Position numbers and translations under genes: made by a program
Assembly (NCBI GenBank): GCA_964023275.1
Contig: OZ029916.1
Location: forward strand, 35,217,727-35,281,726
DNA: 64,000 nucleotides
Reading direction: 5' to 3'
DNA from: Norana najaformis
Taxonomy: Eukaryota > Annelida > Clitellata > Crassiclitellata > Hormogastridae
Notes under the pieces: generated by a model
What the model was told of the DNA's origin: nothing
What the model saw: the letters and a program-made list of their open reading frames with translations, nothing else
The model's database searches: none
In this document: positions 753 through 53,700 of the stretch, piece by piece
How positions within the stretch are numbered: position 1 is the first letter of the stretch
Layout: every line of letters starts with the position of its first letter

Positions 753-3700
753 CATGTAAAAGGAAGCATTCCACTCAGCATCTGATAACAAACGACACCA
801 GCCGACCAGACATCAACTTTTGTACCATAGCTACAAACATGACCAGAATTAACAATATAAATAATCAGCCAGGATCTAGGTCATAATAGGCAACTAGTCG
901 CCACTGTCATTGTCATCATCTTCATTCTTCATTATTGTCATAATCAACATATTCATCGCCATCATCACTCTAAGCCTCATCATCATCCTCATTATTATCA
1001 TCACCATGATCTTTATAGTCACCACATTAATTGCCATCTTAATCATCATAACCATCATTAAAATCATCACCACAAGCATCTGCAAGAGCATAATAGTAAT
1101 CATCATTATAACATGTATCACCCATGTAATCATCACCACATTCATCATTCTCATAAAAGCTATCCTCAATAATCGACACCATCCTAATGATCATCATCAA
1201 TTATGTCACTACTATCATCCCTGCTAGAGATTTTTAAAAGCATCATCGAACCAAGGTCCCTGAAGCATTTCTGGTGCAGTGTATTCCAAAGTTCCCCATA
1301 TCTTGCTCACAGAATCCTCCCCAATCTCCATGGCAACAGCCAGCCCTGCAAGACGTAACTGCCTGTGTACGCCCTGACGGTCATAGGAGACCTAAACCAC
1401 ATCAACACATATTTATTTATTTCTGGATCTTCTTTTATTTATAACCTGTCTTAAGTCACACCTTCAAGTATTTAGCTCTGTTAGACAGCCATGTTTAACT
1501 ATTTTGTGAGGTTCTTAAAAGGCTTTATATAAATAATCACATACATACATAAAAATACAAACACAAACATACATAGTCAGATACATACATACATTCATAC
1601 ATACATACATACATACACACAGATACATATACCGTCGACGCGGCTTAAGTGCATAGCCTGGGGACTGCCTTGAACCTATGCACTTAATCGACTTATGCAC
1701 ATAAGAGAAGTGAACATGAACTGTGCTAAGTTGGCTAAATGTATTGGTATATGTACTTAATAACAGAGATGGAGCCTGCATACTATAATGCCTTCAGAAA
1801 CAATTCAGTTAAAATAAATCTAAGGGTTAAATTAGAATTGTTAGTGCCAAATACACCGTACGTGTACTCCAACTTCTTACAACGGGGGAAAGAAATGATA
1901 CGGTTTGCACACTCCGGAATGTCGACCGGTAACAATGTTAAGTCACCTGCTGATATGGACCACAGTGCAACTAAGACAGACCATTTGACAGCCGGAGTCG
2001 TTTGCTGTCCGTGGGCGAAATACGGGTGGGAGGATCAACTGCTGGCGCCATGTATTGCTGGTAAGGGACCACAATGCCTCGGCGGCCAGATTGTTCTAAG
2101 CTGCCTATGCAGTTAAGCGGCGTTGATATACACAGAGCAAAGCATAACGAGCCTGTAGTCAGCTGTGCACATAACCGAATTATGCACATATGCGATATGC
2201 ACATGCCCACAGTTGGCTTCCATTGAAATACCCTATATTAAAATGGGACCGGCCAGCTTCTATGCACATAAGCGACTGATGCATTTATCTGCTACGCACA
2301 TAAGTGGCGTCGACTGTATGCACATATATATGCATATATACATGATAAAAATATATGAAATTATGAGGCATCTACCGATGATGCTAACAAAATGTGCATT
2401 AGGGTTGCACTAACAACTTGCTCCAAGTCCTGTTGGATTTTGACTTGACTTTTTACTACGATTTCGCTGGAAGTGACCACCAGTCAATGGATGCTTTGTG
2501 AGTATTATGATAATGGCAATATAAAAGTGATTAGATTCAATTAGAAGTGTCTCTGCAACGATTGTCTCAGATAAGACTCAATCCTTCACACTTTGCATTG
2601 CAAGTTGAGTGCTCAATCAATTGGCAGTGATGGTGGATAACTGACCAACAAGACAACCAGTGAAATGCAGCAAATTAAGCAAAGACAGTGCAATGCTCAA
2701 TGAATAAATTAACAACTAAGCCAATTTAGGATAAGGGATTTAAGTCTTGTTAAATGCATTAAGAAACTAAAAGATGCAAAGTAAATCAGGCAAAGGAAGC
2801 AAATAAGAGAAGTCCTGACAGATGCATTAAGTAGATTTATATAACGGCAACATCAAAAACCCACAGAATCTTGGCTCTGGGGAGGACAACCTACCAGAAT
2901 GTTTTCAGGTTTGATGTTTCGATGAACAATGCGCAGAGAGTGGAGGTAGCTGATGGCAGAGCACAGCTGAGCCATCAAGCATCCGGCCTCCCTTTCCGTA
3001 AAGAACTCGGACAGAAGGATTGCGTCCATCAGGTCTGCGCCCTGGATTGAAAAATGAAAAACTAATATCCAAAGGATCATTGTTTAAATACTCAAATTTA
3101 TAATGATGATGACAATGATGATCAGGATGGTGATGATGATGATATGTAATGATTAAAGTGTATATGTAATGTCATGTAAATTTCTTAGTGCCATACAAAA
3201 GCCACATGAAGGAGACCAAATTATTCATTGATACTAAATCAAATCAAGTAATGATAACAGTGGTTAAAATAAAAACAGATGACTGCGAAAAATGAAGACT
3301 GCTTGTGTGTGATGCATCCTAGAAACAGCTCACCAATAATGTAGTATAAATTAGCATTATTACATTACTCTGATTGGTGGTATGCTTAACCCATAATCTA
3401 ATGATTGTGGGTTTGAGCCCGTTCAGCAGATTCTGTGTAATGACCCTGGACAAGTCAATCACGCACATCTGTGTCTGTCCCCAAGCAGCGTAAATCTGTA
3501 CCGGCATAAGCTGGAAAGTAAATTGCAAGTCTTGCAACGCACTGGCCTAGTCTCCAGGACCTTGGGATTTGCCCATTGCTGGCCCAAGGGCCTAAGAGCA
3601 GAAATAAGCACCACCTCCATATTCAACTAGGGATATGGGAACTATACAATATCCTTTATCCATAATTGTGCCTACCTTGAAATACTCCACTATCACATAT

Positions 3701-6700
3701 AACTCAGGAACCGTATCCATTTCATCAATAAACTGCAAAATGTTGCTATGCTTCAGTCGGCGTAGCATCGAAAGTTCATAGTAGATTGCATCAAGTTCAT
3801 CATCAGTGAGCCTTGCTTTGTCAAAGATCTTCATTGCCATGGCCTGCTGTGAATCACCCCTAGAAGAAAAATCCACAGGTCCACAAACATTATTTTATGA
3901 AAAATCCACAGGTTGACAAACATTACTTAATGAGTGTAGATTGTCTGATGCTGATCTATTCAGTAGCGCATATAATCCAACAATTGGGGGTTTGCACTTG
4001 CAGGGCAAACTTCAAGTAATGACTCCAGACAAATTGTGTATGCACACTTGTCTCACACCTCAGACCCTGATTCACCGACCCTGCATGCAGAACAAGTACA
4101 ATAAATAAAAAATAAAAATTACACACTTCTCAGTTTACAAATTGCATAAATTTTTACAGTACATTTCTAAGTTCTCTCACAAGTCATTATGTAAATACTC
4201 AGTTACCAAAGGCAGCCCAAAACATTTGAAGTTGGTTAAGAGATATTAGAGTCTCTTGTATAATGATGGAACAAATTGCCAAAACATCCATCTGACTAAT
4301 TTAAGATCAAATCTGAAAATGCCAACTGATGCTCATTTCAAAGTGAAACCACAGTCATAATATACTGGAAAATTGCAGTCAAAAGACCTTCTCACAGTTC
4401 CGGTTGGGAGCATTCATCCGCTAAACCCATTGAATTCTAACAGACTGAATCAAACAGGAGAAGCGAGACTCACTTGTCGTAGCAGCATTTCATGACCGCG
4501 TAGTCTGTCCAAATCACAGTCTTGCCCATTCTGTACTTTGACAGCAGGGGAAAAGGAATTCCCAAATCATCACCTTAATATAATGAAACAGATCATTTAC
4601 ATGGAGCCTTTGTTGGGTCCTTAAGGAGTGCCATATGAAAATTACAGTTAATTACATAACATGATCTTACTCTGCAGACATCCATTATTGTGCTATGTAT
4701 GTATGTATGTACGTACGTACGTATGTATGTATAAATGTATGAATGTTTGTTCTATTGGTTGATGCCCCCTTGTGCATTAGACACTGGCACTTCAGAAGTT
4801 TCTAAGTTTTTAATAATAATAATACATATGTATAAATATACATATGCATGCATATTGTAATTGTAATTGTAATCTGACATTTATAAAGCGCCACTTCAAG
4901 AATAGACTCATCAGAAGCGCTCCCGACCCGAACCAGTGAAACCACTGGCAAATAATACAGACTTCAGGCGCTTGCGAAACTGCGGAAGAGACAAACTGAG
5001 GAATATTAATATGTCTGATGAATATTAATACTGATAATTGAAGTATACTACATGAGACCATGTAGTATAATAACATAACTAAGTTTAGATTCCCATAAGT
5101 TAAATCAAACAAGAGAAATTCTCGATCACTGCAGAAGGGCTCCAATAAATTTACAAGTTTTCACAGCCACAACGAATTTCAAAATTATCTAATTATTAAT
5201 GAATATTCAAGAGCATTTACAATCTGCAGGCTTTTCCTGCAGAATGTATATTTAATTATGAATAAACTACACAAGAAATATGTAATTTACCTGCACGACC
5301 TCGGTTTACCACAGTTACTATCTGGAAGAGATATGCAAATAGTTAACATTTAATTTCATAAATGTTCACTAAATAATGATTATTAATACAACTGTGCCAA
5401 AATAATGAAGCTAGTTTTCCAGTTACAGATAATTAAAGGATGAATAGAATTAATAAGACAATCTATTGCCATGATGGGGGAGACACAACCTGCAAAATCC
5501 AGTTATGACAACAATCATGTCACAATCAAGTCAGTTTTGACACTTTCATGCCACATTTGTCAGTACTGACATGATAATGTTACTAGAGTTCAGTGGGAAG
5601 GTCAAAGGTAATACATTCACTTACACACCTCTAAAAAAATCTCCTCAGAGGTGTGTTCCCTATGTTGAAGGATCATGCGGCTGAGGCACATACAACACAG
5701 CAATGCAACAATTGGACACCTTTTTGTGCCCAAGTTACGACAAACGTACGCTTGCATGTATGTAGTAAACAATAAAACATACAACTGTAATTTGATAATG
5801 CCCTCCTTGCCAAGTTCAGAAGTGCACATTAAGCAAAGGAACAGGAATGTTAAGAACTGTAAACAGACTGGAAGAAGGAAGTTTTGAGTTTAGAACGAAA
5901 GATAGTCTTGATAACAGAGTTGTGCACATGAGAGAGTTCCAGACGGAGAGACCAGCAACTGTGAATGAACACCGGCCAAAGACATGTACCAGGACTGTAC
6001 TGGAAAATGCTTTCCAGAAGATGCTGATCAAAGAGGAGATCGGCCTGTAACAGAGCTGTTTCTGATCATGCCAGCCTATGCTTTATTTGGCAGCTGTTGA
6101 AAACCAAGCTCACGATTTCGATTATGATCAGAAGAGGTTGTGGTTCAAATTTTTTACACTATATATAAACAATAGTTTGAATAACAAACACAAATCTAAT
6201 CTAAAATATGTAAACCTTGGCAAAAATTGTATCAAGGCAATTCTTGCATCTAGGGTTTAACAAAAAACTCATAATAAAGGCAATAAATGTTGTGCTCTAT
6301 GTTGCCTATTCACCAACATTACACCCAGATTCTTATGCTTGAACCAGAGTTTTTCTCGGCTCGAATTCATCTTAACCTTCTGTTCATTTACTGATAGACA
6401 CTTCTGAACTTATAAAAGACATCTTCTGATTTACATAGAGGCTCAAAAACACATGCCTCTCTTTCATCTGCTAAAGTTACAGAGAACTTTAAGTACCTTT
6501 GGTTTCTTGATGTTGGAAGAAAACCTGGGCAGATTGTTTGACCAAACACTTGCTGAAGGTGTCTTTGTTACAGCTGGATATGAATTTAGCTCTGAAATTA
6601 ATTTTTAAAATATACTTTTAAAGTATCTTTTAAAATATATTCAAAATATATATTTAAAAAAATATTTTTAAAAAAGCATAGCAAAGGCTTCATGTGAATG

Positions 6701-8481
6701 TAACATTACAACACACAATATTGCCATCTAAAGGTTTCTCATGAGCACATTGTGTATTGGTACACTGCAATGTAACTGAACATATATATATATAGTGTCT
6801 TTTAATATCAGTATTTAAATTCAGTTCGTGTACCTCCTACACAGAGGTCAAGTGATTAAAGTGAAGGATTCAGATAGTTTGTCAGACATCTCAAATGTAT
6901 TAATATGTACAGAAGCCCCATCATCATCACATTTTTAACCACTGAATTTGAGTAAAAATAATCGATTCATGGTGGTCTATAGTATTTGGCTACAAATGGT
7001 GAGAAATCCATAATGTACTCTGCCAAGTTTAGAGGCATGTATTTTCTGCTCCACTGGTGCCTCTAGGGAGCTCAGTGTTGTACACAGTATGCAGTGAGAT
7101 CAGACATGTGCAGAGTTTAGAAAAATGAAGTTGCCAGCACTTCATACTCATTGCTGCCTCCCGGATTTAGCAAGAAGATTTCCATGCACTCTTTGATTCT
7201 TATAATCCCTAAGAGAAGCGTAACAACTTTCATACCGGCTGCACTGAGTAGCAAATCATCCGGTGAAATGATTTCTGTGGCAAAAGCAATAAAAATGGTG
7301 TCCTCCTGGAACAGGTCTTCAAGCCATTTTACCTTCAAAATTAAAACCATTTGTTGAATCATGCATCACGAAAGCAATTCAAAGAGTTCATTAGGCTCTT
7401 ACTCTCTTACATGCATTTTTAACTAGAAATCTACGGATTTTCTGAGAATGTATGAATCATTAAAAGATGAAAAGTAGGGAGATGAGTTTAGAGGTGGGTT
7501 ATGCCAGGCTGGTTACATGCAAAGTAAGCCAGCAACAGAAGATTCCAAATTCAAAGAAAACTGTGACTGTATTGTACTTATAGCAACAAAGGAACGCTTG
7601 GTAAGTTGATCAGGCATCTCTTACATACCAATTTGTTTGATTAGCTATTAAACTGCTGTACACAATAGAAGTGATTAGATTAGATCAGGCAAATGAAATT
7701 AGTTATCATGAAATTAACTGACCTCATTTCCAGACACTGAACAGAGATGTTTAATTCCTCCTTCACGCATCATCAGATTCTGCTCTAGACTACCAATGAC
7801 CTGATCCAAAGATGTCGCAGTTTTGTTATCCAGAGTCACCTTAGTCATGTAGCGAGGCCGAGGGCCAGCCCGAATCACATAGATTGTCCTCGATTGAACG
7901 AAACTGCGATCTCCACCACTGACGGACAATTCAATAGGATCCTGTTCTCCGTAAGATGGGCTCGGTGGCCCATCTTGGTGCGTATCAGCTGGTGATCGAT
8001 TTCTTGACAGGATCGGATCAGCACTTCCATACTGCAATGGCTTAAACAATTCGGTAGAACTGAATACGTAGCCTCTGCCCTCTTGGAGTTCATCCAGTGA
8101 CGTAATGCGTCTTCCATCAGTTGAAAATATGTAACGAATTCCCTTTGGAAGGACAGAAACGTCGCATATTGGATGTCGATTGGCATCTAATATCAAGCTA
8201 TCAATGGAAGGATAGATCTTGGAGCTGATGGGTAATACAACTCCTCTGAAGAATGGATCGCCATTTCGAAAAAATGTGATTTTCTTTGCTTGAATGCTGG
8301 ATGACGAGGAACAAGAGGATCTCTGTGGTGATTTCGACCTAAGTTTCGGCGATTTAAGTGTTCTCACTGCACTGAATGAGGATGTTGAATGCCAGTTACT
8401 CTTTGCTCTCTTACTGTGGAAATCGGTGGTTCTGCCATCTTGCCGTGATCTTTTTGAACTCACATCAGAATGAAATGACAT
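753..8481 (-). CDS. DCLK-like: Doublecortin-like protein kinase relative, predicted pseudokinase (3' end missing)
   Basis: Seven exons join in frame for about 501 residues: 8481-7723, 7332-7236, 4573-4474, 3859-3676, 3041-2895, 1391-1252 and 830-753. Residues 1-65 are basic and Ser-rich. DCX domain 1 is about residues 66-151 (starts KKITFFRNGD); DCX domain 2 is about 198-285, ending EDTIFIAF across the first intron. A kinase domain starts near residue 299, as in DCLK proteins, which bind microtubules through DCX. The beta3 Lys329, alpha-C Glu347, catalytic-loop Asn427 and APE (468-470) are kept. The glycine loop is degraded (GKTVIWTDYAVMK), HRD is HRN at 420-422, and the DFG position reads LAGLAV. 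The end of the kinase C-lobe lies off-window. The start is the first ATG; the same frame opens upstream only with TTG. DCLK-type family: sure. Loss of catalysis: inferred from the motifs. Confidence 0.88.
893..1215. repeat. Degenerate ATC/CAT trinucleotide repeat
   Basis: About 320 bases of imperfect CATCAT, TCATCA and ATTATC runs fill part of a kinase intron. Long open frames on both strands here are rich in Ile and Met only because of the repeat. They are not genes. Confidence 0.85.
1540..1626. repeat. CATA tetranucleotide microsatellite
   Basis: Repeated ACATACAT and related runs stop right at the TA target site of the terminal-inverted-repeat element that follows. Confidence 0.85.
1632..2316. 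mobile_element. Non-autonomous pogo/Tigger-like DNA transposon (685 bp)
   Basis: The left end reads CCGTCGACGCGGCTTAAGTG. The right end, reversed, reads CAGTCGACGCCACTTATGTG. The two match over about 20 bases with a few differences. Each end is flanked by TA (1630-1631 and 2317-2318), the target duplication of Tc1/mariner elements. The CAGTCGAC-type end is typical of the pogo branch as I know it. Copies of TGCACATAAG sit in both orientations inside the ends, as subterminal repeats. A 125-codon open frame at 1739-2116 shows no transposase motif, so the element looks like a MITE needing a transposase from elsewhere. It sits in a kinase-gene intron between exons 3041-2895 and 1391-1252. Confidence 0.7.
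3395..3560 (+). repeat. SINE family B copy, tRNA-like head
   Basis: Box-B-like GGGTTTGAGCCC is followed by a conserved body (TGACCCTGGACAAG, CCCCAAGCAG, CGGCATAAGCTGGAAAGT). The body recurs at 25425-25560 and, reversed, at 34770-35060. A weaker relative lies at about 3970-4110. Confidence 0.6.
4692..4750. repeat. GTAT/GTAC microsatellite
   Basis: Consecutive GTAT units switch to GTAC and back within the intron between kinase exons 4573-4474 and 7332-7236. Confidence 0.8.
4850..4990. repeat. Dispersed repeat family E copy
   Basis: TGTAATTGTAATC, AAGCGCCACTTCAAG and a CGCTCCCGACCCGA segment are echoed at about 58110-58320 (AAGCATCGCTTCAAGG, GCGCCCGGCCCGACATCCC). Two copies are too few to define the ends. 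Confidence 0.5.
5650..5765. repeat. Dispersed repeat family F copy
   Basis: GGATCATGCGGCTGAGGCAC and the bases after it resemble 42690-42800 (GATCATTCGGCTGAGGAACA). The type is not recognised. It lies in the kinase-gene intron between exons 4573-4474 and 7332-7236. The rest of that long intron shows no further exon I can support. Confidence 0.45.
6596..6672. repeat. AT-only palindromic tract
   Basis: A run of TTTTAAAATATA and its complement could fold into AT hairpins. It is intronic and no function is visible. Confidence 0.7.
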
Positions 8482-11005: not shown

Positions 11006-14000
11006 CTACCAAACCGGCTGGTGGAAACCGATTTTTCCCTCAAGGCAGCCAGTCACGAGTAACGCATCAGTTGGTGAAAATTTATTAGAGACGATGATTC
11101 CTCCACGATTTATGTTAGTAACAACTTCATGGAGTTTAACTGGAGATGTTGGGATGCAGTCACAGAGTTCACTACAAGATGTGTCAAAAGCGAGCATTCG
11201 AACACCGTTTGCAAACGGTGAGCAAACAAGTCGTCCATCGTTACTGAAACAGATTTCTTTGATGAAGCCTCTCCCAACATTTGGCTCTTCGATGTAGTGC
11301 ATCAGACGGGGCGTGTTTTTGTGCATGTGCCAGTTGGGTCTGGTTTCCCGAACAGCAGTTGGATGGATCACACTTTGGATAGGCTCTTCACCACTCTGCA
11401 AATTGACAAAAAAAGTTACATGATTGTTAGATGGAGGCTCAGAACCAGTCGAGTCAGCCCGACTGTCTGAAGAAAAGGTGATGCCGAGTCCATGCTGGGG
11501 AAAACCTGAGACCTGGAATGCAGGGTTTTCCACATCGATGATATTCGAAACAGAAGACGCTAAACGTGCAGAAGAATCGAAGACCATTTCGGCATCTCTT
11601 GCTTCATTTTCCAGCTCTTCTGGAGTGGCAGGTGGTTCAGGAAATCGCTGATCTGGAAAGACATCTTCCATGTCCACATCATCAACTGAACCTTGAATAT
11701 CGTGGATGCATGTCCACTAGAAAAAGAATTTCAGCAAGAGTTAGAACTTCATAAATGAAATTTAAACCGACATACCAAACGCTAAAATAATCACCTTATC
11801 ACTGTCATCAATTACTCTGGAATAGTGTGATCATATCTATCCATTTCTACCATAAGAATTCCTTTAAACCTACACAGAAGAAGTCAAAATTTGAAAGCTA
11901 GGAATAAGTTTACCCTTTGACAAGAAGAAGCAGCGTAAACCTCACCTCGGAGTCTTCATCACTGCCCGTGTTTCTTGAAACTACGCACCAGCCTTGCGGA
12001 TGTACCTGAAACCAGATTCAAACACGTTTACCACTGTAACTTAACCAAACAGAACGTGTTACAAGATATAATCACATAACATAGTGCAAAACAAGATGGA
12101 GAAGTATGCTAAATAATATCTTACTGAACATATACAACAAGTTAAAGACAACATTTGCTAGCATAATACAAACAGCAATTCTTCACAGTTAGGTTTAAAA
12201 ATCAATCGTCAGCCACATGTCAGCAAATTTCCCAGAAGTATCATTTCTCATTAACTGACTCAGAGTTGCAACATACTGACCAACAACTCTTGACGTATCT
12301 ATATAATGATGTCTTGGTAGTGTAATAAAATCATAATGTATCAGATAATTCTAGCTCTCAGCATAACTGCTAATGACAGTAATCTAAAAAGCAGGCCTCT
12401 CAAACTCAGTCGTGTTTTGAAGCGCCTGCAAAATTTAGGTAAGTATGTTTGTGTGTGTGTAAGTACTTATAAAAGACACTTAATATAGCACCTTTTAGGA
12501 TCTCTCAAAAGCACTGCAAAGTGTGAAGAACTTGAACAAGATCCTCACACAGCAAGTGGAGAGCTTCGAACCCTCATATTTCACATTACAAGGCAAACAC
12601 TGCATATAATCAGCCACTGGATTAAAAAATCAACTAATCTCACTGACAACATACATCCAGTGAAGCAATCATCTCGGCATCATTCCATGGCGGAAAATCG
12701 CTTATCAGTTCCACGCGATTTGTTTTCCTTGTGAATAGAGAATTGTACTTGTACGCCTGCGGCAGTGGAAAACCTCGTGTTTGCATCACTCGATAGAGGC
12801 TCGGCTTGAAGCCGGAAAGGTCTTGTGACAAGGTTGAAAGGTCAAGGTCATGTATGACAATGATGTAACCTTCAGTGGTTGTTATGACCAGCTTCTCTCC
12901 ATCAGGAGTCAGGCGAGAGCGCATCAAGCCATTTGTGTGAAAGATTGGATTGCAAACGACCGATTCAGATGACCTTAAAATATCATACTAATAAACTTTC
13001 GAAAATCAGTGAAAATGCTAAAAAGGATATCATAAAACATTAGAAGGTACCATACGTATTCTTCTTAAACATGATAATAACGACTTTTAAAATGATCCTG
13101 ACAACAATAAATACGACACAAACAACTTAACAGTCATGATACTATAAATTATAATACTACTTCTTCCAAGATACTATAAATTATAATACTACTTCTTCCA
13201 AGATATTTCTTGGGTAGTAATTTAATATTATTATCTGGAAAGCCAGTGGCGATATTTGAACCCTTCTTAGGCGTGGATAAAGCTTCAGAGATCTGCGTGA
13301 AGACTTCACAGAATGGCAGACTTAGATGACATTAGAGTTTAATTTTGTTATTGTGAAGATAATCAGTTTCATGTACAGCAGCATCAGTTTCAAAACACCC
13401 CATGTATTCGGCCATTACTTCTCCATTGGAGTCTTCCTTTCGTCTGGGGTACTCTGCTTCTCCATCTCGATTCAGACTCCAGCATACCTTAGTCGGACCG
13501 TTGACTTACTTAAAAACTATCCACGGGACAGTGCATTTACACCCATCAGCGTCTATCCCTTAAGGCGACTGGGTTATGGCATGTCTCAGCCTGCAAGCCC
13601 AATGTGTGACTTAGTAGGTCATAGCAAGTCTGGGAACTCTAGCCCACTGCATGACTTTGTAGATCGTAGCATGTCTTGGCCTGCAAGCCCACTGCGTGAC
13701 TTGATAGGTCACATCATGCCTCGGCTGCTAGCTCACTGCGTGAGTTGGTTAAGAGAGTCTCAGACTCCAGCATGCTTCATCTGGATGCACCAACATTAGT
13801 CAATAAGCAGTCTGTCATACCCTTCACATCCTCCTTAGTCATTCAGAGCATGTCTAAGGCTACAGCGTGTCTCAGCAGGAAGTGCCAGCCTGAGTTTCTT
13901 AGGCAGTCATAATTCTGTCAACTCCTTCACAGCATTTCATCACAGGGCAAAACATGTTGAACTCAACAAGAAACATGAGACACTTAGCCCAAATCAATGC

Positions 14001-16081
14001 AGTCAGCCCAAATCGGTACCCACTGATGCTTTGTTGATCAGAAAATGTTTACAAATCTTTTCTGTCTTTCCAGGGGATTACAAGTTTAAACTTCCATAAG
14101 GCAACTATAGGTATGAGCCTTTCTTATAATTTGCATGCCTTGCTTTCAAAGGGTTAAACCACAAAAAATGTTTAATCAGTGAACTCCAAAAACGAGCTGC
14201 TTCTGTGATTTCTGGGACAGATTTTGCCTTCCAATCAAACTCGTTTATCTCTTGGGGCAGGTGAGAGCCCTCCCAATAATTGAGTTAAGTTGGGAATCAA
14301 AGCCTGACTTCCAGTTGGCAGCCAACATATTAAATTTAAAAACAGTGTGCTACACTCTGTATATGCTGTTGAAGGCAAAATTTTTTTAAAATGCTGTTTT
14401 TGAACCTGTTTTTGTTGATGTCCCAAGTGCAGATGCTGCCATCAAACCCAGACGTCACGAGCAAGCCCTGACTACGAGCGTATTCGATATTCTTTACCCA
14501 GTTGGAATGTCCTCTCAAGGTCATCACATCCTTTCTCAGGAAACGCAAATCCCAAAGGCGAACAGTCTTGTCATCCGAACAAGTTGCAAACAATCGGGAA
14601 TCTAGAAACCTATAGACAAGTAAATATTGATAACAAATTTTTTTGTAGGTCAGATGTTTCATCATCATAATTGTCTCTTGAGATTTCTACAGCATTCAAA
14701 GAAAAACTAAGTCACAAGGAACCAACTTATTCACAGATGCTCAGTCAAAACAAACCTGATAGGCAGGTAAGGTCAGGTTCAGTTTGAGTTAAACAGAAAA
14801 GTCCTAATTTCTTTGCTTTAAAAATTTTCTTAGGTTCAAGGTCTTCTGGTCAAAAGAAAAGGTCCTCAGTTTAAAAGAAATAGTTTGTGGGTTAAATATG
14901 TTTGGGTTGTCTTTGGTTTAAAGGTCATTTTTAATCAGGTAAAAGATAGTTAAAAGATCTTTGAGTTAAAAAGTCTTTTAGTAAATAAAATACCTTTGAA
15001 CAAAAAGACCTTTAGGTACAAAGGGCATGCAGAAGATCCTAGAAAGACAATGTAGTAATTAAAATTTTTAACAGAGTTCTAATTTGCGGAAAGATTAAAG
15101 ACTACCTGACGTAGTTAACGCAATCTGTGTGCGCTTTCTCCTGGGAGCCGATAAGTCGGGCGTTGTGTGGATCAAACACCAACACGCTCTGCCTCTCACA
15201 GGCAACAACCAAAACTGACCTGCAAACACCACACAGCTATGCTCCGATTTTGAGTTGCTTTCAAGGTGCTATATACATTTGTGTTTCTGCATCATTTGTG
15301 GTCATAAGTCAATTGGATGGCATGGTTGGTGGCAGCAGAATGGTCTAAAGGGACACTTCAAAAATGGAAGCTTACAAAGTTAGCATATCATTTCTTAGTG
15401 GCACTTATACTGGCTTTTGGTCCCTAAAAGCCTTTAAAATGATAAACTTATTAAAATGTGATACTGTATTGTAGTCATTATTGCTGTGCCTTAGAATCCA
15501 AGTTAGATGTTAAGCAAATTTATATATAAATTTAATTATACATTTGCTAAATAAATAATGTACTGAACTGTAAAAATGTAAACTGCTTGAATAAGGTGGC
15601 AGGTGATAGTCAAAATATATGAAAATGTCCTTGCAGATTTGATAAGTGCCAGTGATTAAGCAGCTTGCCTAACTAACATCTGGCACAATATCTAACCAAA
15701 ACCCAGCACCTTTTTTGTGGCACATAAAATTTTGGCACTTTACATAACATTACAAACTAACTAACATCTGGCACAATATCTAACTAATACCCAGCACATT
15801 TTTTGTGGCACATAAAAATTTTGGCACTTTATATAACATTACAAACTAAGCAAAACACACACAAGAAAAAATGAACCTTTGGTAACAAACCCATCAAGAG
15901 AGAAATCAAAGTTGAAAATTCCTCCATGGTGCATGTGACAGTCACTGCTCTGAGGAGACCACATACGGAGACATCGAAATGAACTGTAAATGTCTTGGCA
16001 CAAGGAGCTCTTCAAGCTGGCCTGACCAAGGCATCCGCCTTCGCCAAGTTCTCTCCTTGACAGCCAACTGTGGAGGGGCAT
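11006..16081 (-). CDS. DCAF10: DDB1- and CUL4-associated factor 10 (WD40 substrate receptor)
   Basis: Six exons join in frame for 535 residues: 16081-15877, 15214-15106, 14609-14406, 12973-12655, 12005-11946 and 11716-11006. The protein starts MPLHSWLSRREL. Exon 2 gives VLVVACERQSVLVFDP, exon 3 the clear WD repeat FATCSDDKTVRLWDLR and LLVTSGFDG, exon 4 LTPDGEKLVITTTEGYIIV, and the last exon HYIEEPNVGRGFIKE before an end in HQPVW. These are family signatures of DCAF10 (WDR32); the human protein is about 560 residues. DCAF10 links substrates to the CUL4-DDB1 ubiquitin ligase, probably in the nucleus. The ATG is preceded in frame by a stop about 12 codons upstream, which supports the start. The acidic, Ser-rich linker between exons 4 and 6 is shorter than in vertebrates. 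Confidence 0.95.
12480..12625 (-). repeat. SINE family A copy, tRNA-derived head
   Basis: On the minus strand, CCAGTGGCTGATTATATGCA (box-A region) and GGGTTCGAAGCT (box B) precede CTTGTTCAAGTTCTTCAC. This is the same order as the copies at 33372-33575 and 45659-45828. It lies in the DCAF10 intron before exon 5. Confidence 0.55.
13139..13202. repeat. Perfect 32-bp tandem duplication
   Basis: Two identical 32-base units start ATACTATAAATTATAA and end CTTCTTCCAAG. They lie in the DCAF10 intron between exons 3 and 4, and the identity suggests a recent event. Confidence 0.9.
13560..13745. repeat. Minisatellite of about 57-60 bp units with an open frame
   Basis: Three to four diverged units share GCATGTCTCAGCCTGCAAGC, CCACTGCGTGACTT and GTAGGTCATAGC. 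A plus-strand open frame (13326-13799) runs through with PASP and SPLHDFVD-like steps. It lies antisense inside a DCAF10 intron and has no splice or homology support, so I treat it as a repeat. The rest of 13800-14400 shows nothing recognisable. Confidence 0.7.
14664..14790 (-). mobile_element. LINE 3' end, truncated copy
   Basis: TTGAGATTTCTACAGC, AACTAAGTCACAAGGAACCA and ACTTATTCACAGATGCTCAG match the reversed 3' end of the family. The copy is in the DCAF10 intron between exons 2 and 3. It is followed to about 15020 by a stretch of degenerate TTTAAAGGTC-like repeats. Confidence 0.7.
15671..15848. repeat. 88-bp tandem duplication
   Basis: Two nearly identical units begin AACTAACATCTGGCACAATA and contain TTTTTTGTGGCACATAAA. 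They lie in DCAF10 intron 1, just downstream of exon 1. Confidence 0.9.
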
Positions 16082-50762: not shown

Positions 50763-53700
50763 ATGGCAAAGATTTACAAAATGGATAAAGATGGTAAGAT
50801 ATTCAACATCTGTCATTCTTTTTCATTGTGGCTGCAATTGACATATAGTGTCTTTATGATTCACTTTTATTATTGGTTCTGTGGCTTTGCACTTAGGTAA
50901 TTGTCATTTTTCATGACAACAAAATGAGCTACACTACTGTCTCCCTTACTAAGTATCAAATGACTCGCTAAATTAAATTACTGAGGTAGGCGATTCTTTT
51001 TGGCATGCTTGAGTTTCAGCTAAAAAATCCCTTTGAATGAATGAAGGTTTCACCTGGAACTTAGTAGAACTGACTGCAGCATTGAGCTTTGCTGTAGTGG
51101 GCCCATCTTTTTGAAATAGGAGGCAACCTCCAAGATGAGCATCTTGGTCTTTCTTTGCCTTTTTGTAAAACCATTCTGTTCAATCATAGCTATATGTTGT
51201 CAGGTTGGGAGTGCCACTGAAGAACGGGTGCTATGCAAATATGGAATTACAGTTGCAATTGAATTGTTGACAGAAGCACGATATGAACAACTTCTAGTGT
51301 GTCTTTCATGGAACATTCTCTAGCTGCGGGTTTGCTGTGATGATTACAGATCCAGCGGCACAGGCTCGGCTGTTTCCTTCCTGCCGACTGGTGCTCGCAA
51401 TCGTCGGTTTCTTCATGTTTGTCCATCTCTATGCTCAGCGAGTTGGCATGTCAGTGGCGATCGTCTGCATGGTCAACCAGACGGCCATTGCTAAACCTGT
51501 GGTGGACATGGAAGCCAACGAGACTAAGATTATTAAACCTGCCTGTGAACGTGATTCTACCAACAAAACCGTTGAAGTGAGCCAGACCTAATTCCTTTCT
51601 AAAATCAGTGTTGCTTGGGATGAAAATTTGCATGGGATGGTGAGTGATTGGTTGAACATGTATGGATGGTGAGCAATTGGTTGAACATGTTTCTTATAAT
51701 GTGGAGTATGACAAGTCACGCCTTTCCTTAGACAAGTGTGCATATATATGTGTATGTTTATATGTGTTAAAACACTTTTCATAATGTCTTTTAAGTGCAC
51801 TGGAGACTCTTTATAACATGCTTCATTCTAACAAATTCTCATATAACTTGGTTAGGGGCATGGAGCCCAAAATTAATTCACCCATAGAAACTAAACTTGT
51901 GAGAACATGACTTTGTGTAACGCAGTTCTCGATATGGCTACCAAAGGCAGCATTAATGAATCATGGGCAACATTGCTTTAGCATCATCTACCAAAGCATG
52001 TCGGTATTTGTAGTGGCCTTTGCTTTACTGTAAATATAAGTAAATAAGCAGAAGTGATTATTTTGTTGCTTTTCAAAATTCAGGCTGCACCTTGGAACTC
52101 TTACTCTAACAATGAGAAAATTTCTTGAATTAAAATACATGGTAAGGCACACTAGAACATAATGGTACCATACCTTCGCATTACTTTATGTTTTCTGAGT
52201 TTGAAACGATCCTGAGTGATACTGTTTGTTCTGTTCTGAAGGATGGACCTTTCATTTGGGAAAAGGAGATTCAGGGTCACATCCTTGGTGCGTTCTTCTA
52301 CGGTTACCTAGTGTCGCAGATCCCTGGAGGAATGTTGGCAGAGCGGTTTGGTGGCAAGTGGGTTCTCACCATCTTTCTTGGTATTTCCACGGTCGCAACG
52401 CTCCTCACTCCTTTGGCGGCGAAGCTGAGCTTTGTTCTGCTAATTATCTTGCGAGTCCTTGTAGGAATTGGTTCGGTGAGTTTTCAGCTTCTTCTCTTTT
52501 GCTGTTCCCAGTTTGTAATGTAATCTAAAGCATTTGTATAGCTGCTTTAAAGAAACTGTCCATGAGGATGACATAATGGGAGATGGATAACACCCAGATA
52601 AGTGGAGGGTGCGATCAACACCAGCAGGCAGTGAGGAAGGCAGGAAGGAAAGGAGAACCTCTCAAAAGGGCTGAACGATGTAAACAGTTGCAAGTTAAGG
52701 TAAGCAGACAATGTATGTAGAGCTGAATCACACAAGGCTGAACACATGGTTGATGTAAACAGTTGCAAGTTAAGGTAAGCAGACAATGCATGTAGAGCTG
52801 AATCACACAAAACTACATACATTCAGTGGAAGATTGATGATTCTTTTATTAGCTTCATAATAGTTGGTTGTGGCTGGCAGACTTTTGGGTCATCTGTATA
52901 GCTAGTTTTCCTGGGCAGCATCCTTAACTAGACTTTGTTTGCTGAGTCATGATTGGGTGATGATGGCAGATTTGGGTGATGATTTTCAGGGTGCCTTGTT
53001 CCCGGCCATGCATGCTATGCTTGGCCAGTGGGCTCCACCAATGGAGAGGTCATTATTGTGTGGACTTACCTATGCAGGTAAATTCTTTTTGATCTAATGA
53101 TGTTGGTAATTGTGTAATTTTTTGCCTATGTAAGTAATTTAGTCATAATTTCCCTAATAGGTAATTTTTCTGGATTTTTTGTGTGCAGTTCATATTTAAT
53201 GATTGAGAAATGGGCATGTATCCAATGAAGATCCTGTTCTTTAAAAGTTAAAGCACAAATATGTAATATCATGAAATCTTGGAATTTCTTGTGTGTAACT
53301 TTTTATAAATGATTCAGAACATCTACAGTTTTGCAGTTTCTGTTGTTCATATTTGTGTGACACATGGAATACACTGTCACATGGAATGCACTGTGTTGTC
53401 GTTTTTCTCCAAATAGGTACTATGATGGGAAATGTGATAGCGCTGCCACTATCTGGTCTGCTGTGCCAGTATGGATTTGCTGGTGGATGGGGATCTGTCT
53501 TCTACCTCATAGGTAAGTGATCTCTGAAGTAAACCTTCACTGAGGAAACCTTTCTTGGCTCCATGTTCCATGTTCATAAGTTACTGGTATCCAACAGAGA
53601 TACCTACCCCAAGTACCTTTGTTAGGCTTTATGGTCCTTTGACTTGTTAAGTATTTTTGCTGTATTACCTGATAAGTCAGATACAATTAAGAGCTGTAAT

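Follow-up and report, generated by a model that had tools for sequence, protein, structure and literature searches.

DCLK1 has been studied for how its kinase domain switches the protein's own binding to microtubules. The active DCLK1 kinase is described as phosphorylating its own DCX domains, with the C-terminal tail restraining this; deletion of the tail leads to hyperphosphorylation of the DCX domains and no microtubule binding, and the kinase-dead mutant D511N binds microtubules more robustly than the wild type at the lower concentration used (PMC8352597). The mutated residue is the Asp of the HRD motif (PMC10602587). The gene described here, called gene A, is a DCX-kinase gene on the minus strand, at 8481-753 of a 64,000-nucleotide stretch of the genome of the annelid Norana najaformis (the window, i.e., the whole stretch analysed, C4:35217727-35281726 in a genome of 608 Mb and 17 contigs), and it has Asn in place of this Asp. 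On balance, and with moderate confidence, we read it as an intact, selected paralogue of the DCLK1/2 type that has turned pseudokinase, a microtubule-associated protein whose binding would be uncoupled from self-phosphorylation.

Alignment to DCLK1 revealed that the three features of a catalytic DCLK, the HRD Asp, the DFG Asp and the GxG loop, are all missing from gene A, which has HRN, GLA and VIWTDY in their places. The glycine loop IGDGNFAVVK of DCLK1 reads VIWTDYAVMK, with the degraded part (VIWTDY against IGDGNF) at 4500..4517; the catalytic loop HRDIKPEN reads HRNIKPEN, with the Asn codon AAC of the D511 position at 2916..2918, located by reading and by a motif scan; and DFG is replaced by GLA at 1338..1346 (all on the minus strand). 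The last replacement was seen by reading and in the ungapped alignment of LKLGDFGLA with LRLAGLAVA, which ruled out a deletion of two codons at this site. Retained are the beta3 Lys, the alpha-C Glu, the catalytic-loop Asn, APE, the alpha-F Asp and the C-lobe Arg. The original prediction, that the glycine loop is lost, that the HRD Asp is Asn, that the DFG Asp is absent and that the first four of these elements remain, was thus borne out at each site, with the DFG Asp lost by substitution. Two of the three residues by whose loss pseudokinases are recognized in sequence (beta3 Lys, HRD Asp and DFG Asp) are gone, and we infer that the domain is catalytically inactive and that it keeps the kinase fold. 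Transcripts with other exons that restore HRD and DFG had been named beforehand as a way in which this picture could fail; a motif scan of the sense strand over 15.5 kb covering the locus found no alternative HRD or DFG exon, and its single catalytic-loop exon is the HRN exon, so that splicing within the locus is unlikely to restore either motif.

The question was also raised whether the same genome holds a second, catalytic DCLK gene. A DCX-profile search of the genome gave 19 matches, with 27 of 27 candidates scored, and a kinase search gave at least 94 matches at E values up to 0.001; because 150 of the 399 first-look kinase candidates were scored, the gene counts are lower bounds. At least seven DCX-kinase genes, A-G, were found, located in the window (A) and at C13:14.95 Mb (B), C4:39.6 Mb (C), C12:8.2 Mb (D), C5:14.95 Mb (E), C8:19.68 Mb (F) and C6:34.49 Mb (G). 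With DCLK1 as the query, four of the seven (B, D, F and G) keep HRD, DFG and the GxGNF loop, so that catalytic DCLK genes are present beside A. The remaining three, A, C and E, have HRN without a GxG loop, and so carry the same change as the laboratory D511N mutant; the motifs of gene C are VLAQDDF, HRNVRPDK and DFG, and those of gene E are VVCRCGY, HRNIRPES and DFS. Kinase intron positions and phases are common to A, B, C, D and E, and F and G show another pattern. Six further DCX loci (C7, C9, C16, C4:37.0 Mb and two on C3) had no nearby kinase match in the kinase search, and tblastn with the DCX pieces of C9, the only ones of the six loci put in, printed no kinase match.

The three HRN genes form one clade, supported at 96/96 in the kinase tree (11 rows), 100/99.8 in a tree of the DCX domains only (8 rows), 100/100 in the joint kinase and DCX tree, and 100/98.8 in a kinase tree with 21 active-site columns masked (8 rows). 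A grouping of A with B, D and DCLK1 was rejected in the kinase tree (P value of the approximately unbiased test, p-AU, 0.0007), and the D/N state of HRD takes one change on the masked 11-row tree. With A, C and E in one clade, a single Asp-to-Asn change is the simplest account, and because its two sister genes share this key loss, gene A looks like part of an inherited dead-kinase branch of the DCLK family, not like a decaying copy. By direct counting, A, C and E share one inserted residue between beta3 and alpha-C that the five other DCLK rows lack; the alignment program placed it differently in E, and it is used as supporting evidence only. A one-residue gap in DCX1 was dropped as a mark shared by the three genes, the residue being lacking in F and G also. 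The tree alignments contain only partial sequences for F, PSKH and one TSSK; those of B and human DCX stop short of the DCX2 end, and the final 60 or so residues given for the human DCLK1 kinase are provisional. The trees give no firm branching order among A, C and E, and for the age of the HRN clade relative to the vertebrate split the alternatives were not rejected with kinase, DCX or joint data (p-AU 0.18-0.46). A wider proposal, possible but on the doubtful side, is that of an old invertebrate DCX-pseudokinase subfamily, absent in vertebrates, with the Asp-to-Asn change fixed and the tail dismantled, in which dead kinases would lock binding on and modulate the catalytic paralogues.

Membership of gene A in the DCLK family follows from several lines of evidence. 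Pfam assigned Pkinase (155 bits) and DCX (61 bits, DCX1) to its product, with no separate Pfam stretch for DCX2. A PDB sequence search (best 60 of 2380 matched sequences) gave DCLK1 kinase for all of the top six matches (E 3e-46 to 5e-46), followed by doublecortin 4atu, whose match over residues 58-282 covers both DCX domains (E 1.5e-35), and then, from E 1.6e-30, by CDPK and MARK kinases. The tandem DCX domains are thus found by Pfam together with the 4atu alignment, and the CAMK kinase domain is nearest to DCLK in the PDB matches and in the kinase tree, where A and seven other DCLK rows are split from the PSKH and TSSK rows (support 81/90, not starred). The kinase intron positions and phases are also those of the DCLK1/2 type, and the predicted DCLK architecture, two DCX domains and then a kinase, was in this way confirmed.

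Within the window, gene A comprises eight exons on the minus strand, separated by seven introns that are all GT..AG with junctions in phase; the first ATG of the open frame is at 8481 and the last splice donor in the window follows 753. Exon 1 (7723..8481) encodes the start codon, a Ser/Arg-rich N-terminus, DCX1 (from 8289) and most of DCX2, and ends at a GTCAGT donor. Exon 2 (7236..7332, AG acceptor and GTATGA donor) completes DCX2, to about 7246, and begins the linker, which continues in the 27-nt exon 3 (5291..5317; VTVVNRGRA, where gene C has VITVVNRGHS). A 31-nt version of exon 3 was rejected, since it breaks the phase that 27 nt fits. Exon 4 (4474..4573) holds the linker end GDDLGIPFPLLS and the start of the kinase domain (4535 on), exon 5 (3676..3859) the beta3 Lys (codon 3831-3829), the alpha-C Glu (3777-3775) and beta4-beta5, and exon 6 (2895..3041) alpha-D/E and the catalytic loop. 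Exon 7 (1252..1391) covers the DFG region and the activation segment up to APE, with a weak donor, GTTCGA, and exon 8 (753..830) covers alpha-F (KVDVWSAGV...MLPFT). The gene carries on to the left of the window with two more kinase exons, C4:35217195-35217096 and C4:35216435-35216307, making a total of ten open exons with GT..AG junctions and a product of 586 amino acids if exon 10 is read through to its stop. Of the original claim of seven exons in perfect phase, the phase held and the count did not, as eight lie in the window, one of them only 27 nt long. The linker VTVVNRGRAGDDLGIPFPLLSKYR between DCX2 and kinase (window 5317-5291 and 4573-4530) is closely matched in gene C (VITVVNRGHSGENFGIPIPVLAKYR), which suggests a conserved peptide. 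Simple tandem repeats are present in the introns of gene A at 977-1016, 1529-1621 and 4694-4750.

Codon models were applied to genes A-E to follow the selection acting on them. With one omega (ratio of nonsynonymous to synonymous rates) for all branches, values of 0.054 (kinase) and 0.042 (DCX) were obtained; the A branch had 0.087 (kinase) and 0.043 (DCX), no different from the rest (twice the log-likelihood difference, 2dlnL, 0.15 and 0.33), and fixing omega at 1 on this branch gave a worse fit (2dlnL 6.4 for kinase, 12.5 for DCX). Contrasts of omega over the whole clade were slight and pointed in opposite directions for kinase and DCX. Because synonymous changes have reached saturation and the DCX branch length of A lies at its upper bound, the omega values are rough, i.e., they tell that the branch was constrained and give neither the strength of the constraint nor its end date. 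The A branch is under purifying selection; the relaxed selection that had been named in advance as a threat to the claim was not seen on it in comparison with the other branches. Together with the match of the exon pattern to the DCLK paralogues, the low omega shows that the observation is not due to chance, and the statement that it is an intact gene and not a decayed copy stands on its in-phase exons, GT..AG introns and an omega well below 1. A duplicate that recently became non-functional and is now drifting would account for the position of A as the longest branch of its clade (0.99 in the joint tree), for the weak exon 7 donor and for the missing donor where one normally follows the final kinase exon. 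Such a dying gene is very improbable given the ten open exons with their GT..AG junctions, the A-branch omega of 0.04-0.09 with omega = 1 rejected, and the same Asn in two sister genes.

The catalytic genes B and D each have two exons after the kinase domain. Those of B are at C13:14960962-14961081 and from 14961639 on, the first ending in VANRIVQFAKSDKKYLATKQPGVAVIT and the second reading ATALDKGSKFFQGRKNFQCISGSDEVF up to the stop codon; those of D are at C12:8194654-8194517 and from 8193568 on, the first containing ASRIIQFAKSEKIEQ and ending in SAVAVIT, the second reading ETALDKGCRYFRRRKLAQNRQGNGDEVF up to the stop codon. The tail exons of the two genes match each other (E 6e-7 and 3e-4) and are DCLK1-like (VAVIT, TALDKG, end DEVF), and seem to retain the Thr and Lys known from vertebrates; the VSVI motif and the Thr are reported to be absent from invertebrate DCLK1/2 (PMC10602587). 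Downstream of A (9,581 bases), C (6,218) and E (5,397), the tail exons of B and D found no match with an E value below 2.5. C and E retain the splice donor that follows their final kinase exon, and A has lost it. An aligner suggested two very short exons downstream, EQALTVA and EKLAK, as a tail of A; they were rejected for want of convincing splice signals.

Several observations speak against a selected, tailless pseudokinase that holds on to microtubules. The absence of a tail from A is the result of a negative search and a diverged tail may persist: a GT lying about nine codons beyond the normal donor position could lead to further exons, and the catalytic genes F and G likewise gave no convincing tail match over the approximately 1.3 kb covered past their last modelled kinase exons. 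In gene C, the second tail exon may survive as a remnant, ATTLDQGLNF, at C4:39611605-39611742 with a good acceptor (E 3.4, weak alone), in which TALDK has become TTLDQ and the docking Lys is now Gln. In an alignment to the DCLK1 tail, this site probably corresponds to Lys692. In DCLK1, Lys692 is described as bridging to the HRD and DFG aspartates, and the tails of DCLK3 are reported to be short (Venkat et al., PMC10602587). The support of the A, C and E clade falls to 72/89 when the masked columns are combined with the 11 rows that include distant outgroups, and selection on the A branch may have relaxed very recently. The DCX1 domain of A (window 8289-8029) evolves fast and no longer has the conserved R-F-R stretch (SKIYPSID in place of DRFRSFD) that C, E, B and human DCX retain, so that the affinity of A for microtubules may be reduced. 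Taken further, this would mean that microtubule binding was lost as well and that A is a general scaffold with no role on the lattice, which is improbable in the light of the low A-branch omega of the DCX domains (0.043) and of the RNGD, GIRYIF and IRAGPRPR stretches that these domains keep. Finally, low activity has been reported for the HRN domains of HER3 and JAK2 (PMC9988210), and with the beta3 Lys, alpha-C Glu and catalytic-loop Asn in place, A might be a weak or unconventional kinase that retains some phosphotransfer or nucleotide binding. This is very unlikely, since the glycines of the loop and the metal-binding Asp of DFG are missing from A too, and since no activity over background was seen for PSKH2, a related pseudokinase with HRN (PMC9988210).

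Under the favoured reading of A as a microtubule-associated pseudokinase, the change from HRD to HRN and the loss of the GxG loop would most simply have occurred in the ancestor that A, C and E share, after which each of the three genes would have lost more, although the order of losses is itself a reconstruction. By homology, the two DCX domains of A would bind the microtubule lattice, and the kinase fold would be a folded module unable to phosphorylate them; with no DCX phosphorylation, microtubule binding would no longer be switched off by the protein itself. The regulatory C-terminal tail, a restraint on the active DCLK1 kinase, would then have decayed, as expected where no activity is left to restrain. 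The retained fold may be a structural spacer, a docking site or a partner of B and D. Alternatively, and closer to the scaffold or allosteric role proposed originally, the pseudokinase could act as an allosteric partner that pairs with B, D or another kinase at microtubules and activates or restrains it, as has been described for STRAD with LKB1 and for Fam20A with Fam20C. The catalytic paralogues are present in the same genome, and the kept fold residues, like the purifying selection that the kinase domain is under, imply that this domain retains some function; active DCLK1, however, did not trans-phosphorylate the dead form in the D511N experiments (PMC8352597), and we consider this pairing rather unlikely.

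Elsewhere in the window, a WD40-repeat exon of a neighbouring gene was recognized at 14339-14686 (minus strand), and this gene may resemble DCAF10; the nearby open frames 11009-11716 and 12643-12987 had no Pfam match. An exon of an MFS_1 major-facilitator transporter lies at 52146-52520 (plus strand), and tRNA and Rfam scans of the window found nothing. In the genome, tektin genes are numerous, with 83 matches (e.g., C16:5878846 and others on C11, C12, C14, C10, C13 and C3); at nine places the profile match starts at 1 or 2 and ends at 122 or beyond, and one of these is full-length in a single open frame. The tektin-1 gene matched human 7ung better (374 bits) than sea urchin 8snb (355 bits), which makes an echinoderm source unlikely.

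Among the known systems, DCLK1 and DCLK2 resemble A in having two DCX domains followed by a CAMK-type kinase, DCLK1 is its best PDB match, and A has its kinase intron pattern in common with the DCLK1/2-like genes B and D of this genome; they differ from A, which is without the HRD Asp, DFG and glycine loop and in which no tail was detected. PSKH2, TRIB1-3 and STK40 are not known to carry DCX domains. TRIB1-3 and STK40 are, like A, CAMK-branch kinase folds with lost motifs, which in TRIB and STK40 are described as being used for docking, and the C-tails of TRIB dock on the pseudokinase, unlike in A, where no tail was detected. The human CAMK pseudokinase PSKH2 resembles A in having HRN beside a catalytic paralogue, PSKH1 (PMC7586955, PMC9988210), and differs in keeping the glycine loop and DFG (PMC7586955); its non-canonical HRN form is stated to be confined to primates (PMC9988210). 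Pseudokinases beside catalytic sisters are therefore already well known, with PSKH2 as an HRN case from the same CAMK branch (PMC7586955). The literature searched, with most subscription journals outside its scope, yielded no description of a DCX pseudokinase in the portions available. Venkat et al. 2023 (PMC10602587) count only two DCLK paralogues in invertebrates, compared with at least seven DCX-kinase genes, three of them HRN, in this genome; the kinome papers on Schistosoma and Fasciola list one DCAMKL each, and the oyster kinome paper names DCAMKL once in its text, with no count. If our reading is true, pseudokinases extend to a microtubule-binding kinase family, and natural genes of the D511N type beside catalytic sisters offer an evolutionary test of the DCLK1 switch model, which expects kinase activity and tail to be lost together while the DCX domains stay bound. 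The DCLK1 D511N mutant, kinase-dead and microtubule-binding (PMC8352597), shares with A the same change of the HRD Asp to Asn; there it is a single engineered change in an otherwise complete DCLK1, whereas in A it is natural and accompanied by further losses.

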